Below are positions 5,355-13,233 of a stretch of DNA of 64,000 bases, piece by piece. The DNA comes from Bacteroidota bacterium (lineage in GTDB: Bacteria > Bacteroidota > Bacteroidia > Bacteroidales > Prolixibacteraceae). Made by a program: the position numbers and the translations under genes. The notes beneath the pieces are model-generated. The model was not told where the DNA came from, did no database searches, and worked only from the letters and a program-made list of their open reading frames with translations. Location of the stretch: NCBI GenBank assembly GCA_023251455.1, contig JAHEYT010000030.1:1-64000 (forward strand). The letters are read 5' to 3'. Position 1 is the first letter of the stretch. Every line of letters starts with the position of its first letter.

Positions 5355-6734
<1,380 letters not shown>

Positions 6735-6939: not shown

Positions 6940-7593
6940 TTAAATTTCGATGATGTTGTTTTTGATGGCGAATTTGACCATATCAACCGTGCTTTTCAGG
7001 TTGAGCTTCTGCATAATATGGTTTTTGTGCGATTCAACGGTTCGGACACTGATAAAAAAGCGGTCGGCAATTTCCTGGTTGGTATGACTTTCACCCCAAA
7101 GCTTGAGGATTTCAACCTGGCGTGAGCTTAAATTGGCAATATCAGCATTCTGGTTCAATTCATCGGCTTTCAAGCTCGAAATATAGCGGTTCAAAAGCAG
7201 GTGCGTGATCGATTTGCTGTAATAATCGTGACCGTTTCTCAGCGTATAAACAGCTTCGAGCAAACTATTTCGGTCTGAGTCTTTCCCGAGAAATCCTTTG
7301 GCGCCGGCCTTAATGGTCTTTAGCACAATTTCTTCACTGTCGATAACTGAAATAATGAGAATTTTCAGTTTCGGATTGCTAATATTCAACTGCACGATCA
7401 GGTTGAGATTACGGACCGATATGTCGTGCATGTTTAAGATCAGCACATGAACCTGCATTGACTTCAGCTTTTCAGTCAGGATATTTCGGTCATCGCAGTT
7501 CAGCACAACCCTGAAATCGGAGATGCCCGACAACATTCCGGAAATACCTTCCAAAACCAGTTTGTGTTCATCAAATAATGCAATATCAATCAT
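6940..7593 (-). CDS. LuxR/NarL-type regulator with altered receiver
   Basis: A 217-residue protein with an N-terminal receiver-like domain (about 1-118) and a C-terminal LuxR helix-turn-helix (about 152-215: LSSRQVEILKLWGESHTNQEIADRF, then VRTVESHKNHIMQKL). The acidic pocket is kept as FDEH, but the strand that normally ends in the phosphoacceptor Asp reads VLILNMHD, with Asn in that place. Phosphorylation of the usual kind is therefore doubtful. The ATG at 7591-7593 is preferred over an upstream TTG. The gene follows the giant ATP-grasp protein by about 60 bases on the same strand. Confidence 0.85.
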   Translation of the reverse strand: MIDIALFDEHKLVLEGISGMLSGISDFRVVLNCDDRNILTEKLKSMQVHVLILNMHDISVRNLNLIVQLNISNPKLKILIISVIDSEEIVLKTIKAGAKGFLGKDSDRNSLLEAVYTLRNGHDYYSKSITHLLLNRYISSLKADELNQNADIANLSSRQVEILKLWGESHTNQEIADRFFISVRTVESHKNHIMQKLNLKSTVDMVKFAIKNNIIEI

Positions 7594-7611
7594 TCCGGAA
7601 ATGTTTAAGGC

Positions 7612-7619
7612 CAAAATTA
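7612..7619 (-). promoter_or_regulatory. possible -7 element for the LuxR-type gene
   Basis: On the minus strand TAATTTTG fits TAnnTTTG about 18 bases before the ATG. No clear -33 box, so the gene may also be read through from the giant upstream gene. Confidence 0.3.
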
Positions 7620-7653: not shown

Positions 7654-10600
7654 TCATTCGTGCGTAATTATTGCCGAAGTTTTCATCCGGCCATCCATCA
7701 GAATTGTAAGTGGTTTCTCGAACCTGATGTGCTTAAAATAATTTGTTTCGTGAATTACCTTCTGTTTGTCCAGCATTTCCCATTTCACAAAATCGGTTAG
7801 CGATGAATGCAGAACCGAAAAATAACCAATATTCATTGAGGTTACATTGTGAAAGAAATGCGACCCGAGCGACGAATCCAGCGGATAATTATCGAGACTC
7901 ACTTCCACAATTACTTTCGCATTCGAAATTTGCGACCAATTTACCGGAATGCCTACAAACCGGTCGCGGCTTCCCCAACGCCCCGGCCCAATTAACACAT
8001 ATTGCCTGTTGTTCTTGATCATCAGGCTATTCAGGCTCTCAATCTCGGCAGCCATTTCAAGCGTTTTGAGTTTACTAAATCTAGCAGGGTCGACATAAAT
8101 AACATCCCGAATATCTTTGATTTCTCCATTTCCCAGACTCGACCTTGTAAACAATGCCATCTTCGACTTATCCATCTGGTCGATCACAATATTCTGCATA
8201 ATTTGATTGCCAATCAGTGGTTTAATCTGAAGCAGGTAAAACGTAGGCAAACCGTTTTTCGAGCGATCAAGATCAACAGCGTATTCTATTTCAACCGGCG
8301 AGCCAAATGCTTCCTTTACCGTATTCAGCAAAACACTGATTGTTTCGGCCAAAGGAATATAATTGTATTGCAGAATGTCGGCAAAGTTGACGATGCGTGG
8401 TCCATAAATGCTCAGGCCAGGTTCAATGCGATCGTTATTCGGATTGTAAACCGAAACACAATGATCCAAAGTTCCATGCTTTTCAGCCTCACGAATATCT
8501 AACAATTGGAGCGCTGCCAGTTCACCATGTTCCAGAAAATCAAAATCCCGGTCGCGGCAATCGAGCGCATAAAACTGTACCTGGGAGCTGTTCAGTAAAT
8601 CTTTAATGCTGTGAATCGTAACTTTGGGATATTTGGGCGAAAAGCGGAACGATTTCCAGCCATCGACTACATAGGTTCCCAAACCCACTGCAGCAACGGC
8701 AAAACCCTCATCAGGCTTCATATTAGCCACCGGATAATAATTGTATGACTGTGCAACCCCGCTGATGTGCGGATAATAATAATCGCCGTATTGGTTTCCA
8801 ACAAGTTCCTGCAACACTACAGCCATCTTTTCTTCTTCCACTTTGTGATGAATGATTGAAAAATAATTTCGTGCTTTTTCAGAAAAAGTGGAGGCAAAAA
8901 CCAGTTTAATTGCTGTTGAAATCCGTTCGAGAATCAGCTTTTTATTTGTGGCATGATTGGGAATGATATAAGTATCAAAAACTCCGGCGAATGGCTGTGT
9001 TATTGAATCTTCCGAAGAACTTGACGACCTTACTGCAATGGGTTTTTCGATCTGGGAAACAAAAACCCTCAATTTTTTAAGGAGCGAAATAGACAAATGA
9101 GCATCAACAAACAGACGCCTCAATTCGGCGTACGAAATATCGGGGTCGATGATTTTATCGAAAAGCTTGTTTTTGGCAATGAAATGCTGAAATTCATTCG
9201 AACCAATAATGACTGTTATGGGCGCCAAAATATTGATTTTATTGGCTAAAGTCGGGAATTCCAAGTTGTAAATCAGTGTGTTGATGAACGCCAGTCCACG
9301 TCCTTTTCCACCCAGCGAACCTCCGGAAAAGGATACAATATTCTTTTCGTCAAGTGTCGATGTTTCATCAAAGTTCAGAATTTTTCCTTTTTTCTTTTCC
9401 TCCCGATAGTGTTTGATGCTATCTAAAAAGAATTGCCGCATTTCATCCATACTTTTGAATGTATTGGCTGCAACCGGATTGAGTGTTTTGGCAAGTTGAA
9501 TTTCACCACGCGACATCAGCCACAACGATAGCTGGTTTTCAGAAGCATGAAGATACAACGATTCGTCGGGGACTTCCTGAAGCAAGGTTTCGAACTCGCG
9601 TAACGACTTGGCCACACCAATTTTATTGCCTTCTTTATCCCTGAAAACAAAATTTCCGAAACCCAGATAACTGACCAGATAATGCCGTAAATCATTCAGC
9701 AAAGTCTCCGAATTTTTGTTGATGAATGCAACTTCAAGTTCGCGTGCTACCTTTTCATTCCGATTCTCGGATGATTGTAAAATAATCGGGATCTTGGAAA
9801 TGTGTGATTTGACGTATTTAATGAAATTTACCCCAGCATGTTTATCCATCTTTCCGCCGCGGTCGAACTCGACATCCGAAATCACACAAAGCAAAAAATC
9901 TTTGTATTTATTGAAAATAGCGATGGCTTCTTCGTAATTACGGGCCAACAGAATTTTGGGTCTCGAACGCATTTTCGAGATTTTGTCCAATTCGTTTTTC
10001 TCCACTTCAGGCAACAGCTGTTGTACCTGGCTAAAAACAATATCGTACAAAAACTGGAGGTATTTCGAATAATAAAGCGGCGAATCTTCGATCAGCAAAA
10101 TAACACGAACCAGACCAATTTTGGTATCGTTCTCCACATTCACTTTGTCTTCGGTCGATTTTACAATGGCAAACAGGATAAGCGAATCACCGTTCCAGAC
10201 AAACAGTTTATCGACCGAACGGATGGTTGGAACCAGTTCTTCAAAATATTTGATGTCACTTTTTTTGTTCAGGAGCAGATAAATGGGCAGCGACTCGTTT
10301 TTTGCACGTATCTGTTCGCTCAAAATTACGGGCGCTTCACGATCCATTCCAGCCATCAAAATAACCAAATCAAAATGCGTGGTTTCCAGCAAATTGAGCG
10401 CTTCTTCGGCTGACGAAACCCCAGTGATTCGCGGAACCGAAAAAAGGCTGTACTGGTAGGCTTCGCCCATAAATTTCTCGAAAAATGAGTCTTCGCTTTC
10501 GAGGGTAAACGCGTCGTACAAAGTAGCCACAAACAAGATGTGCTTGATCTTGTACTTCATCATGTCGAGATAAATGTACTTATCGATCGACTGCTGATTA

Positions 10601-12369
10601 AAATACAACTGGAGGGGCTTTTTGCTTTTGGCCAGCGAATTCCGGAATTCGTCGGAATAGTGAATAACCTGCACGGGCACACCTTTTCGGTGGATGATTT
10701 CGCGGCCTTTGAAATTATTCAAATAACCACTGATCAAACGGGCAATATTAATCAGCAAATTACGCTCCTCATGCAGGAAAGGCCCTTCGTCTTCCTTCGG
10801 GAATTGTTTGAGGTAGAAGATTTCAATGGTACCCTTTTTATTGTCGATGGTCACAAAATTTTCGGTCTGAACCCAATCGGTTTCAGTAAAATTCAGGCTC
10901 GTGTACGATTTCCCCTCAAACTTAATGCGCGAAACTGTGTACTTCGGATATTGCCACGACTTGGGAAGAATGGAGCAAATTTCCATCATTGTTTCATCAA
11001 CCGATTTTCCTTCGTCGATGATCTGCGTGGTTTGATTGATGGCCTTTAGTTCTTTTAGGCGTTCAGTATTTTCGTGATGCAACTTATTAAACACATCGCG
11101 AGAGGCCGAACCGGCAATCAGATTCGAAAGATTGACCAGCAGATTACGCTCTTCTTTCAGAAAAGGACCTTCATCAGCCTCCGGAAATTGCTTCAGGTAA
11201 AAAATTTCGATTGTTCCCTTTTTTAGGTCAGGAGCTTCAAATCCCTGCACCATTTTCCAGTTTGTTTCGATGAAATTGGAACTCACAAAAACATTTTTAC
11301 CATAACTGATTCGGGCAACAGTATATTCAGGATATTGCCATGATTCGGGCAAAATGGAACAAATTTTGGGGAGCGATTCTTCCAGCGGACTGCCGGTCTG
11401 CAAGATTTCGCTTGTCCGGTTGATTCCCCTCAATTCCTTCAACCGTTCTGTATTTCTGATCAGGAGTTCTTCCAATGCTTTTTTTGATGCAGTTCCCGAA
11501 ATCAAAGCGGCAAGGTTATCAATCAGATTGCGTTCTTCAATTAAAAAAGGGCCTTCGCCAGCCTTCGGAAATTCGTTCAGGTAATAAATTTCAATTGAAC
11601 CTTTTGATGAATCGGGAGTTCCAAATGTTTGCTGCAATTTCCATGGTGTTTCCCTGAAACCCACACTGGTAAAGTTTTTGTCGCCATAGTTAATTCGCAC
11701 TACGGTTTGCACCGGAAACTGCATGGCTTCTGGTAAAAAAGAACATATTTCCTGTAACAACTCGTCGAGTGAAGTGCTTTTCTTCAGAATTTCGGTTGTG
11801 CGGTTGATGCTTTTCAGTTCTTTTTGACGTTCGCCGATATCGATGGTTAGCTTTTCGAGCTGTATTTTTGAAATGAGGCCAACAAGCAAAGGCACAATAA
11901 TTTTTAAAGTCAATTCAGCTTCTTCAATTAGCGCTCCTGAAAAATGGATGTTCTCCGGATGCGACAGAAACAGTTCGACCAATCCTTTTTTGCCATCGGG
12001 CAATTGAAAATCGTGTTTTACCACAATGGATGTTTCCTGAAACAGATGGCTTCGGAATAGTTGTCCTTTGAATGAAATACTTGCAAAAACCGAATTTTCA
12101 GCAACCGAATTCCGGGTAATGGCATCACAAAACTGCAGCAACGAGTTATCCAGATCTTTCCCTTGATCCAGAATTTCAATTATTTCGAATATCAAATCTT
12201 TTTGCAGAAACAATTCTGAGTATGCAGAACTTCTATTTTTCTTCATAATTCCCAATTTAACACGAGCTTCAGAACCAAACGGCCAAACTTTCGGAAGCTT
12301 CTTCGAAATTAGTACATAATTGGTTCTGATGTTACTGAGCGGCGGAAAATCATCGGAAGTAAAATACAA
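7654..12369 (-). CDS. Giant GAF-repeat/receiver/PEP-synthase ATP-grasp protein
   Basis: Up to 1571 residues. Residues 50-180 form a divergent first unit, then three closely similar units of about 128 residues follow (180-307, 308-435, 436-553). Each has a helical ERLKELxxINxT start, an ICSxLPExxQ block and a GTIEIFYL...EGPFLxEERNL end, as in GAF-like sensor domains. A receiver-like stretch (608-740) lacks its Asp (VILMAGMD). A second (755-900) keeps the set: Glu761/Asp762, Asp832, Ser866 and Lys885. The rest is the ATP-grasp domain of PEP synthase (GGSLGGKGRG near 1016, AVRSSSSSEDS near 1112, LLQIKPL), then a tail with GPGRWGSRDRF. The phosphohistidine and PEP/pyruvate-binding domains are absent, so it cannot be a complete PEP synthase. 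The start is unclear: TTG at 12369, or ATG at 12246, just before the first unit. Confidence 0.8.
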   Translation of the reverse strand: MYFTSDDFPPLSNIRTNYVLISKKLPKVWPFGSEARVKLGIMKKNRSSAYSELFLQKDLIFEIIEILDQGKDLDNSLLQFCDAITRNSVAENSVFASISFKGQLFRSHLFQETSIVVKHDFQLPDGKKGLVELFLSHPENIHFSGALIEEAELTLKIIVPLLVGLISKIQLEKLTIDIGERQKELKSINRTTEILKKSTSLDELLQEICSFLPEAMQFPVQTVVRINYGDKNFTSVGFRETPWKLQQTFGTPDSSKGSIEIYYLNEFPKAGEGPFLIEERNLIDNLAALISGTASKKALEELLIRNTERLKELRGINRTSEILQTGSPLEESLPKICSILPESWQYPEYTVARISYGKNVFVSSNFIETNWKMVQGFEAPDLKKGTIEIFYLKQFPEADEGPFLKEERNLLVNLSNLIAGSASRDVFNKLHHENTERLKELKAINQTTQIIDEGKSVDETMMEICSILPKSWQYPKYTVSRIKFEGKSYTSLNFTETDWVQTENFVTIDNKKGTIEIFYLKQFPKEDEGPFLHEERNLLINIARLISGYLNNFKGREIIHRKGVPVQVIHYSDEFRNSLAKSKKPLQLYFNQQSIDKYIYLDMMKYKIKHILFVATLYDAFTLESEDSFFEKFMGEAYQYSLFSVPRITGVSSAEEALNLLETTHFDLVILMAGMDREAPVILSEQIRAKNESLPIYLLLNKKSDIKYFEELVPTIRSVDKLFVWNGDSLILFAIVKSTEDKVNVENDTKIGLVRVILLIEDSPLYYSKYLQFLYDIVFSQVQQLLPEVEKNELDKISKMRSRPKILLARNYEEAIAIFNKYKDFLLCVISDVEFDRGGKMDKHAGVNFIKYVKSHISKIPIILQSSENRNEKVARELEVAFINKNSETLLNDLRHYLVSYLGFGNFVFRDKEGNKIGVAKSLREFETLLQEVPDESLYLHASENQLSLWLMSRGEIQLAKTLNPVAANTFKSMDEMRQFFLDSIKHYREEKKKGKILNFDETSTLDEKNIVSFSGGSLGGKGRGLAFINTLIYNLEFPTLANKINILAPITVIIGSNEFQHFIAKNKLFDKIIDPDISYAELRRLFVDAHLSISLLKKLRVFVSQIEKPIAVRSSSSSEDSITQPFAGVFDTYIIPNHATNKKLILERISTAIKLVFASTFSEKARNYFSIIHHKVEEEKMAVVLQELVGNQYGDYYYPHISGVAQSYNYYPVANMKPDEGFAVAAVGLGTYVVDGWKSFRFSPKYPKVTIHSIKDLLNSSQVQFYALDCRDRDFDFLEHGELAALQLLDIREAEKHGTLDHCVSVYNPNNDRIEPGLSIYGPRIVNFADILQYNYIPLAETISVLLNTVKEAFGSPVEIEYAVDLDRSKNGLPTFYLLQIKPLIGNQIMQNIVIDQMDKSKMALFTRSSLGNGEIKDIRDVIYVDPARFSKLKTLEMAAEIESLNSLMIKNNRQYVLIGPGRWGSRDRFVGIPVNWSQISNAKVIVEVSLDNYPLDSSLGSHFFHNVTSMNIGYFSVLHSSLTDFVKWEMLDKQKVIHETNYFKHIRFEKPLTILMDGRMKTSAIITHE

Positions 12370-12423: not shown

Positions 12424-13233
12424 TTAAACGGGGGTATCTACTCTGTTCAAAACATGGGATTCGGAGTGTTTACATCCAAATCGCTTCACCATTTCCTCGA
12501 AACTGGTGTAATAGGCATTAAAATTATAGCCATCGACACACAGTGCGCGGGTATTTCCACAAATACTAACCCTATAAATTCCATGCAGTCCTTTTTGTGT
12601 CTTTTCGTTCAAGCAAAGCATGGACTGAGCTTCGGTGCCAGTCGCGGTGCAAACAGTTAAGGTCTCGCGAATTGTTTTTGCTGAACCAATTGCAAAAACC
12701 TGGTCATACTTTTGGACTCTCAAGGTTTGCTCCAACACTTGCGAAGTGCGTCGTGGGTTCCTTTCGGTATTGATAAAATAGTCAGACAAATTTCGGATTT
12801 CGTTTTCCAGAATCTGATCATCCCCGCTCGTTCCAGTCAACAGGCAGGTAATTAGGTTTCCTGCAGCCCGAAGTGCAGCTAAAACCGGATAAATCGAAAT
12901 CATACTTTCCTGATTGACAACACATAAAACAGCACCAAACTTCTCTATGTGAAACGGTTGACCAAATGGTCCTTCCATCTCAATCTGAATACCCGAAAGA
13001 CATGGATTTACCAACGCTGTCAACGTTTCAGGAATTGAAGAGGCAAACACTGTCAGTGTTTCACGGCTTGAATCTGTTTTTACGACCGGCAAAGTAATTG
13101 CTGCACCATCTGGCAAAACTCTCAGAATAATATACTGACCTGGCTTAGGGGTAATAAATGTTCCGGAAGGTTTGATTTCCAGCTTATATAAATTCTCGGA
13201 AATGGTTTTTCTGGTTATAATTTTGCTGATCAT
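12424..13233 (-). CDS. NfnA/PyrK-like reductase fold lacking cofactor motifs
   Basis: A 269-residue protein aligning over its length with the FAD/NAD-binding subunit of ferredoxin-NADP reductase NfnA and dihydroorotate dehydrogenase PyrK. The order is kept: beta barrel with PGQYIILRVLPDG (35-47), nucleotide domain (from about 100), and a C-terminal cluster region. The FAD signature RxPLT reads AAITLPV. The glycine-rich nucleotide loop before IYPVLAAL reads VVNQESMIS. The iron-sulfur motif DGTGMCGxCRV reads TQKGLHGIYRV, leaving only the last cysteine (LCVDG). It is therefore probably not a redox enzyme. It lies just upstream of the giant ATP-grasp gene (its stop and that gene's TTG start are 54 bases apart), likely co-transcribed. 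Confidence 0.8.
   Translation of the reverse strand: MISKIITRKTISENLYKLEIKPSGTFITPKPGQYIILRVLPDGAAITLPVVKTDSSRETLTVFASSIPETLTALVNPCLSGIQIEMEGPFGQPFHIEKFGAVLCVVNQESMISIYPVLAALRAAGNLITCLLTGTSGDDQILENEIRNLSDYFINTERNPRRTSQVLEQTLRVQKYDQVFAIGSAKTIRETLTVCTATGTEAQSMLCLNEKTQKGLHGIYRVSICGNTRALCVDGYNFNAYYTSFEEMVKRFGCKHSESHVLNRVDTPV

Follow-up and report, generated by a model that had tools for sequence, protein, structure and literature searches.

A receiver-containing ATP-grasp protein family with an unrecognised C-terminal domain, encoded beside glutamate dehydrogenase genes

We analysed positions 1 to 64,000 of contig JAHEYT010000030.1 (hereafter the window) from a Bacteroidota bacterium of the family Prolixibacteraceae (assembly GCA_023251455.1). 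On its minus strand, an open reading frame of 1571 codons, initiated by TTG, spans positions 7654-12369 and encodes a giant fusion of sensor-like units, two receivers, an ATP-grasp domain of the phosphoenolpyruvate (PEP) synthase type and a C-terminal domain. The protein proved to have relatives at 583 or more loci. This family shares a near-invariant C-terminal domain of unrecognised fold and is encoded beside glutamate dehydrogenase (GDH) in several phyla, which makes it a specific and testable candidate for metabolic control. Judging by architecture, conservation and gene linkage, we tentatively favour the view that the protein regulates the GDH/2-oxoglutarate node by means of an ATP-grasp under two-component control. 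Elements of this proposal deserve unequal trust: a functional link of the family to the GDH node is likely and signal gating of the protein is probable, while it is doubtful that GDH or a partner is acted on directly and covalently.

Results

An ATP-grasp domain followed by a domain of unrecognised fold

From the N to the C terminus, the protein consists of four sensor-like units, receivers 1 and 2, a helical segment similar to DUF5752, a PPDK_N ATP-grasp domain and the C-terminal domain. A first-pass annotation of the same DNA had placed four sensor-like units ahead of two receivers and an ATP-grasp domain, and this architecture is borne out on the minus strand. Translation may in fact begin at Met42 (ATG, near position 12246), since alignments of most long relatives begin at amino acids (aa) 18-59. 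The predicted model of aa 600-1565 (mean predicted local distance difference test score, pLDDT, 85.5; predicted template modelling score, pTM, 0.70), built on a structure alignment of 65 of the 92 sequences described below (70% identity cut), was compared with the PDB by Foldseek. Rifampin phosphotransferase (5hv1) was the top match (E 7e-13), and the receiver pair of PleD was also retrieved (2wb4/1w25, E ~5e-8). Chance assembly of these parts is excluded by the structure matches, by the identity of same-genus genes (78-89% across the aligned portion) and by a core common to several phyla.

The ATP-grasp domain (aa 1018-1387; 8209-9318, minus strand) is matched by Pfam PPDK_N at E 2.2e-36, with 126 bits against a cut-off of 27. 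Conservation was counted in 92 sequences, namely the window protein and 91 full-length cores from relative loci (the best 80 of at least 583), partial cores being dropped. All ATP-grasp positions counted, K1022, R1114, E1120, D1121, E1360, E1362 and Q1381, are invariant in 92/92. We take these residues to bind ATP, as their counterparts in pyruvate phosphate dikinase (PPDK) and PEP synthase do; for R1114, E1120 and D1121 this role is consistent with the alignment to 5hv6.

Identification as PEP synthase was rejected, as sequence models match through the ATP-grasp part only. Neither the swivelling phosphohistidine domain (PF00391) nor the PEP-binding barrel gave a Pfam match in the protein at E up to 10. 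The profile searches proposed along with the first-pass annotation thus returned PPDK_N (E 2e-36), a receiver match just under its cut-off and no hidden phosphohistidine or PEP-barrel domain. That annotation had described the ATP-grasp part as standing alone. It was right as to the missing phosphohistidine and PEP domains and overlooked what follows the ATP-grasp, a near-invariant domain of about 180 residues.

This C-terminal domain (aa 1388-1571; 7657-8208, minus strand) carries a GPGRWG motif, in which Pro varies, and an HFF motif. Residues G1461, G1463, R1464, W1465, G1466, E1489, H1504, F1505, F1506 and N1508 are invariant in 92/92. In an alignment of 85 rows, including three divergent neighbours added by hand, H1504 is kept in these neighbours as well and N1508 is not. 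Pfam found no match in the window's domain and, among 17 members, a single match at chance level (ToxS, E 0.036). Nor did the alignment of this domain retrieve a credible match among PDB profiles (best E 0.51). Modelled on its own, the domain reached pLDDT 90.5 and pTM 0.89, and a PDB fold search with this model had a best E of 0.2, with TM-scores of at most 0.3 among the 50 matches listed. A hidden phosphohistidine domain, considered as a candidate, was discarded on the absence of a Pfam match at E<=10, of such a domain in the 17 C-terminal domains and of a PDB fold match. No C-terminal domain without an ATP-grasp was found in loci L053-L132. Along the sequence it stands where PEP synthase has its phosphohistidine domain, but it is not recognisably that domain. 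Invariance and position mark out His1504 as the foremost single phospho-acceptor candidate, albeit an unlikely one.

The lacking function could also be supplied in trans. According to the first-pass annotation, a separate phosphohistidine protein might accept phosphate in a split, PEP-synthase-like phosphorelay. PEP synthase logic speaks for such an arrangement, and so does Desulfovibrio vulgaris, where the PPDK-like DVU0246 with its mobile domain adjoins the CheY-like receiver DVU0247 (PMC4001038). However, the only PF00391 match in the window's own genome lies in a 909-codon frame that also bears PPDK_N. This frame apparently encodes an ordinary PPDK/PEP-synthase-type protein, since both domains occur together, so that a separate acceptor is not indicated. 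PF00391 was not found among the few neighbour proteins put through Pfam either, most neighbours lying outside that scan. We regard a relay in trans as very improbable.

Two receivers, of which the second keeps the phosphorylation site

Receiver 1 (aa ~610-730; 10180-10542, minus strand) is a pseudo-receiver. At its phospho-Asp position, which we assumed from the usual motif spacing, Met is found in 83/92 sequences and Asp in 0/92. Receiver 2 (aa ~754-900; 9670-10110, minus strand), on the other hand, retains the acidic pair, phospho-Asp, Ser/Thr and Lys of a response-regulator site: E761 is conserved in 92/92 sequences, D762 in 84/92, D832 in 90/92, S866 in 92/92 and K885 in 91/92. Each of the two exceptions at D832 is encoded by the second member of a tandem gene pair in Cloacimonadota. 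The initial impression of one receiver without Asp and another with the full set is borne out. Pfam Response_reg matches the protein in two stretches (E 7.5e-7), at 29.7 bits against a cut-off of 30.2; a relative in locus L137 reaches 35.7 bits. In the helical linker that follows (aa ~905-1000; 9370-9657, minus strand), H941 and W950 are invariant in 92/92. Its DUF5752 score of 17.4 bits is below the cut-off of 23, as are those of relatives in L110 (18.0) and L137 (16.4), and L124 scores 30.1.

Because both the ATP-grasp residues and the phosphorylation site of receiver 2 are conserved, the natural reading is a signal-gated, ATP-using protein other than PEP synthase. The first-pass annotation, which spoke of a signal-gated ATP-binding or phosphotransfer protein rather than a metabolic enzyme, is thus supported in part; the GDH linkage described below escaped it.

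Sensor units were gained about once

The sensor module is well defined and measures about 120-125 residues. All four copies lie on the minus strand: unit 1 at aa 54-174 (11848-12210), unit 2 at aa 178-298 (11476-11838), unit 3 at aa 305-425 (11095-11457) and unit 4, which aligns with the unit of single-unit relatives, at aa 429-549 (10723-11085). Three units had been noted as very alike, and units 2 and 3 are indeed 53% and 58% identical to unit 4, the divergent unit 1 being 25% identical to it. Their GAF identity is weak. In an alignment of 46 of 56 unit references, Pfam GAF (PF01590) matched 1/46 units (E 0.0027), and the best PDB profile match, 4g3v (E 0.0043), is confined to the N-terminal first helix; the unit is therefore called here a sensor module, GAF-like at best. 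The same module occurs in six other scanned proteins, multi-PAS by Pfam, and histidine-kinase domains are present in four of them.

Among 133 full cores, counted after removal of three duplicate loci (L024-L026), 66 have no unit, 37 have one, six have two, nine have three and 15 have four. On a tree of the ATP-grasp and C-terminal part (FastTree, no bootstrap; 42/130 inner branches drawn open; locus L001 replaced by the window sequence), the presence of units requires two changes, as opposed to a mean of 44.7 after shuffling. GAF-like units were gained about once, in Bacteroidota, and grew to three or four in the lineage of the window protein, which has four.

A large family with several forms

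The giant fusion is not an isolated oddity but belongs to a large family, in which 103/133 full cores carry no sensor unit or one. Homologs at E<=1e-10 are present in 57/61 genomes (own genome included), and a genome-wide scan yielded at least 583 relatives, the best 80 of which were kept and are hence tilted to near relatives. These findings, together with the many core forms, rule out a lone odd fusion. The kept loci come from Bacteroidota, Riflebacteria, Spirochaetota, Acidobacteriota, Cloacimonadota, Neomarinimicrobiota, Eisenbacteria, Planctomycetota, Ignavibacteriota, the archaeal Thermoplasmatota and others, phylum names being given as recorded and many genomes being metagenome-assembled genomes (MAGs).

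Long and short core forms are often tandem neighbours. Other members, of about 580 aa, consist of the ATP-grasp and C-terminal domain alone. Members of about 1060 aa combine a GAF-like unit, the ATP-grasp, the C-terminal domain and an NTP_transf_2 nucleotidyltransferase (by Pfam in 2/2 scanned); in a third protein of this size the first three parts were detected by hidden Markov models.

Several individual relatives may be mentioned. A short paralog in the window's own genome (contig C84, 35091-38033) is 47% identical to the window protein over aa 587-1568. A relative of 899 aa (L112:9722-12418) has, before its ATP-grasp, a segment that looks KaiC/RecA-like by eye, and Pfam shows PPDK_N only. 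The core gene at L109:6581-9569 is spread over two frames, its match being interrupted by a TGA and a TAA, and is either a broken copy or an assembly error. One contig filed under an Alphaproteobacteria MAG (L070) bears a core that nests with Bacteroidales in the tree, and is probably misbinned or transferred.

Members of the family are encoded beside glutamate dehydrogenase

We next consider gene neighbourhoods at 83 loci (the 80 best of at least 583 minus one uncalled core, plus the window and three near loci). Counted were the two nearest genes on each side of the core block, or genes between core genes, with names checked on ten representatives. The gene gdhA was found at 31 loci, korB at 15, korA at 13, a LuxR regulator at 12 and NfnA at six; any of GDH, KOR, Nfn or NuoEF was near at 45. 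Some neighbourhoods accordingly contain 2-oxoacid:ferredoxin oxidoreductase or NfnAB. The count loses genes in GC-rich loci owing to greedy choice of reading frames. At L110, for example, both core and GDH were missed, and GDH is actually 1.4 kb away.

As these loci lean to near relatives, a phylum-wide sample was added. Of 99 genomes drawn evenly, 17 bear the family, the own genome among them; three of the 17 (G069, G111, G130) have only a divergent form of about 1030-1070 codons. In 16/17 family-bearing genomes (15/16 without the own one) a GDH gene (PF00208) is found no more than 5 kb from a member, where random placement, a yardstick only because it ignores operon structure and shared ancestry, expects 0.24. 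Counted per member, the figure is 26/33. A further 23 distant genomes correspond to the 26 loci L107-L132 less L111, L127 and L129 (Bacteroidota); GDH is within 5 kb in ten of these genomes, against 0.31 expected on the same yardstick. The linked distant genomes belong to Acidobacteriota, Cloacimonadota, Eisenbacteria, Ignavibacteriota, UASB270 and, in one case, a Thermoplasmatota archaeon.

One might object that the linkage is incidental, an old operon having spread by chance while the protein acts elsewhere, and the lack of a close GDH in 13/23 distant genomes would fit such a history. Linkage recurs, however, in several phyla, with gene orders and orientations that differ, with members of 580, 1000 and 1060 aa, and with GDHs of different best models (NADP-specific PRK09414 in the window, archaeal GdhA in L112). 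One inherited operon is thus a poor explanation, and we consider incidental linkage very unlikely.

Apart from the limits of the expected counts, several observations weigh against control of the GDH node. None of GDH, KOR, Nfn or NuoEF is near at 38/83 loci, partly because of poor gene calls. In the phylum sample, 7/33 members are not within 5 kb of GDH, and one genome (G074) is an exception as a whole, its GDH being 47 kb off. The 13 distant genomes without GDH within 5 kb include two without any GDH match and several with members on short contigs, and true separations also occur (288 kb in G161, 9.3 kb in G169). Two Spirochaetota loci (L108, L118) adjoin phenylalanyl-tRNA synthetase genes, and no GDH match was found on the contig of the short paralog in the window's own genome. 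Since PF00208 matches of the linked GDHs range from E ~1e-95 to ~1e-56, a single conserved docking site on GDH is not obvious. Finally, the chemistry of the C-terminal domain is a guess, because the domain has no known relative.

Neighbours of the giant gene and notable loci

In the window, four genes follow one another on the minus strand in the order NfnA-like gene (12424-13233), giant gene, LuxR/NarL-type regulator directly downstream (6940-7614) and gdhA for an NADP-type GDH (5355-6707). All three neighbours are conserved, the NfnA-like one within the genus. In a tblastn survey of 29 loci (L004-L032) with flanks of about 1.5 kb, the LuxR gene was found at 19/29, gdhA at 14/29 and the NfnA-like gene at 12/29.

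Both the regulator and the NfnA-like protein, which resembles FAD/NAD ferredoxin reductase, are degenerate. The regulator of the window has Asn at the phospho-Asp place of its receiver, and Asp is seen by eye in 2/12 aligned sequences, the window's being one of the twelve. In the NfnA-like protein the GGGxG motif and two cysteines of the iron-sulfur motif have been lost; five aligned relatives keep both motifs. Within the genus it is far less conserved (36-69%) than gdhA (>=88%). No NfnB gene is labelled beside it. Such degeneration suggests that in this lineage the two proteins may serve as binding partners rather than as enzymes.

These neighbours lend some colour to another explanation, according to which the ATP-grasp merely senses energy status as ATP/AMP, and the protein controls its target, be it GDH or a DNA-binding protein like the LuxR-type neighbour, by binding and without phosphotransfer. 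The absence of a phosphohistidine domain match would be expected, the NfnA-like protein encoded upstream has degenerated as an enzyme, and the LuxR neighbour, lacking phospho-Asp in 10/12 aligned sequences, may be driven by protein contact. On the other side, a LuxR regulator is near just 12/83 loci, and the ATP-grasp positions are kept across phyla beyond what a mere sensor would seem to need. A pure sensor is consequently rather improbable in our judgement.

Particular loci combine the family with further regulatory genes. At L137:1805-13171, one same-strand run encodes two GDHs, a protein with two receivers, ATP-grasp and C-terminal domain, a protein with the latter two domains alone, and one in which a GAF-like unit, ATP-grasp, C-terminal domain and nucleotidyltransferase are fused. 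The Cloacimonadota locus L120:5649-16107 comprises two cores and gdhA, followed by a histidine kinase that carries the sensor module and by an NtrC-type regulator; its second core lacks the receiver Asp, and its kinase is one candidate for the cognate histidine kinase.

As side observations, runs with GDH and proteins of about 1060 aa (GAF-like unit, ATP-grasp, C-terminal domain) were seen in L137, L138 and L139, of which L137 and L139 also encode a protein of about 580 aa with ATP-grasp and C-terminal domain, and L139 an NtrC-type regulator. At L089:8196-9915, between long and short core genes and with gdhA on both sides, lie genes for a protein with GAF-like unit and nucleotidyltransferase and for a metallophosphoesterase. 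A nucleotidyltransferase fused to members, or near them as in L089, recalls by analogy the nitrogen control by GlnD/GlnE.

Discussion

In many anaerobes, GDH is a main route by which ammonium enters carbon metabolism. We know of no dedicated GDH regulator in Bacteroidota, and searches of open-licence PMC papers brought up none by title and abstract opening. How the window protein might act on this node can be sketched as follows. The tandem sensor units would take a small-molecule or redox input. Asp832 of receiver 2 would, to judge from its conserved site, become phosphorylated, and receiver 1 may be an interface pseudo-receiver by analogy with PleD. Sensor input and Asp832 phosphate, with receiver 1 as the interface, would then switch the ATP-grasp domain, which is predicted from its conserved residues to bind ATP. 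It might hand phosphate to a residue presented by the C-terminal domain or bound at it, His1504 being the leading, if weak, candidate. The outcome would be altered GDH activity or altered flux among glutamate, 2-oxoglutarate and reduced ferredoxin.

A different possibility is that the protein acts in metabolism itself, as an ATP-grasp dikinase or ligase under receiver control which makes phosphorylated or conjugated glutamate, 2-oxoglutarate or a relative, with the C-terminal domain as acceptor site. Acyl-phosphates are frequent products of ATP-grasp folds, the counted ATP-grasp positions are invariant in 92/92, the C-terminal domain is conserved like an active site, and the named neighbours are often metabolic (GDH, 2-oxoacid:ferredoxin oxidoreductase, NfnAB). 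Against this, paralogs standing side by side in one run, some of them without receivers, and the fusion to sensor units would suit control better than a pathway step, and the C-terminal fold search suggests no substrate. An enzyme of this kind seems to us unlikely, though worth serious consideration.

Regulation of the GDH/2-oxoglutarate node thus remains our preferred, tentative reading. Extended to the whole family, it would imply an undescribed nitrogen control in bacteria and some archaea, in which ATP-grasp proteins, equipped with the GPGRWG/HFF domain as a new phospho-acceptor or catalytic domain and gated by receivers and by GAF-like units, covalently control GDH or its 2-oxoglutarate/ferredoxin partners, with a GlnD/GlnE-like nucleotidyltransferase branch in some lineages; in this full form the idea is speculative and will more probably fail than hold. 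The protein is best classed with the response regulators of enzymatic output, and there is a fair chance that it represents a new control system for nitrogen-carbon metabolism. In any case, the family shows that PEP-synthase-type ATP-grasps in a signalling context can lack the phosphohistidine domain and be followed by a new domain instead. The gene is more interesting than it was at first described, mainly owing to the unrecognised C-terminal domain and the GDH linkage.

Searches of open-licence PMC papers, by titles, abstract openings and selected passages, brought up nothing on a GDH link or on the C-terminal domain of this family, and, by titles and abstract openings, nothing on a reversible inactivation of Bacteroides GDH. 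The Bacteroides thetaiotaomicron genes BT_1970-1973, considered as a possible gdhA cassette with family genes in between, were dropped, BT1971 being called a catalase in two papers.

Among described systems, the closest in composition is a combination of receiver and pyruvate phosphate dikinase, named 'Bacteroides-like' and reported in three Heimdallarchaeota by Galperin et al. 2018 (PMC5847659). There, as here, a receiver and a PPDK-type domain are joined in one protein, by description. Neither a C-terminal domain nor a GDH link, nor sensor units, nor a mechanism is given in the accessible part of that work, and the window protein adds four units and a pseudo-receiver. Korte et al. 2014 (PMC4001038) studied the Desulfovibrio nitrate cluster DVU0245-DVU0251, mutants of which have altered nitrate tolerance (they resist nitrate). 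The cluster resembles the window system in that a PPDK-like protein is encoded in the company of receiver, histidine kinase and phosphatase; its parts, though, are separate genes, and no GDH link is described in the accessible text. DVU0246 is annotated as carrying a PEP-utiliser mobile domain and is therefore, by annotation, not of the same family. The enzyme I PtsP of PTS-Ntr likewise joins a sensor domain to phosphotransfer of the PEP-utiliser type in nitrogen control (PMC4848567). The window protein lacks the His and PEP domains of PtsP, which in turn is not known to have a receiver.

With PEP synthase and PPDK the window protein shares the PPDK_N ATP-grasp; they have a phosphohistidine domain and a PEP barrel, and it has neither, carrying another domain after the ATP-grasp. 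Rifampin phosphotransferase, whose ATP-grasp fold gave the top structure match, is composed of ATP-grasp, antibiotic-binding and His domains, and only the ATP-grasp part of its NCBIfam and PDB models is matched by the window protein, which, unlike it, bears signalling domains at the N terminus. PleD, finally, has the same tandem of receivers, one of them a pseudo-receiver. In PleD the first receiver is the phosphorylated one and the output a GGDEF domain, whereas in the window protein the second receiver keeps the Asp and the output is an ATP-grasp together with a new domain.

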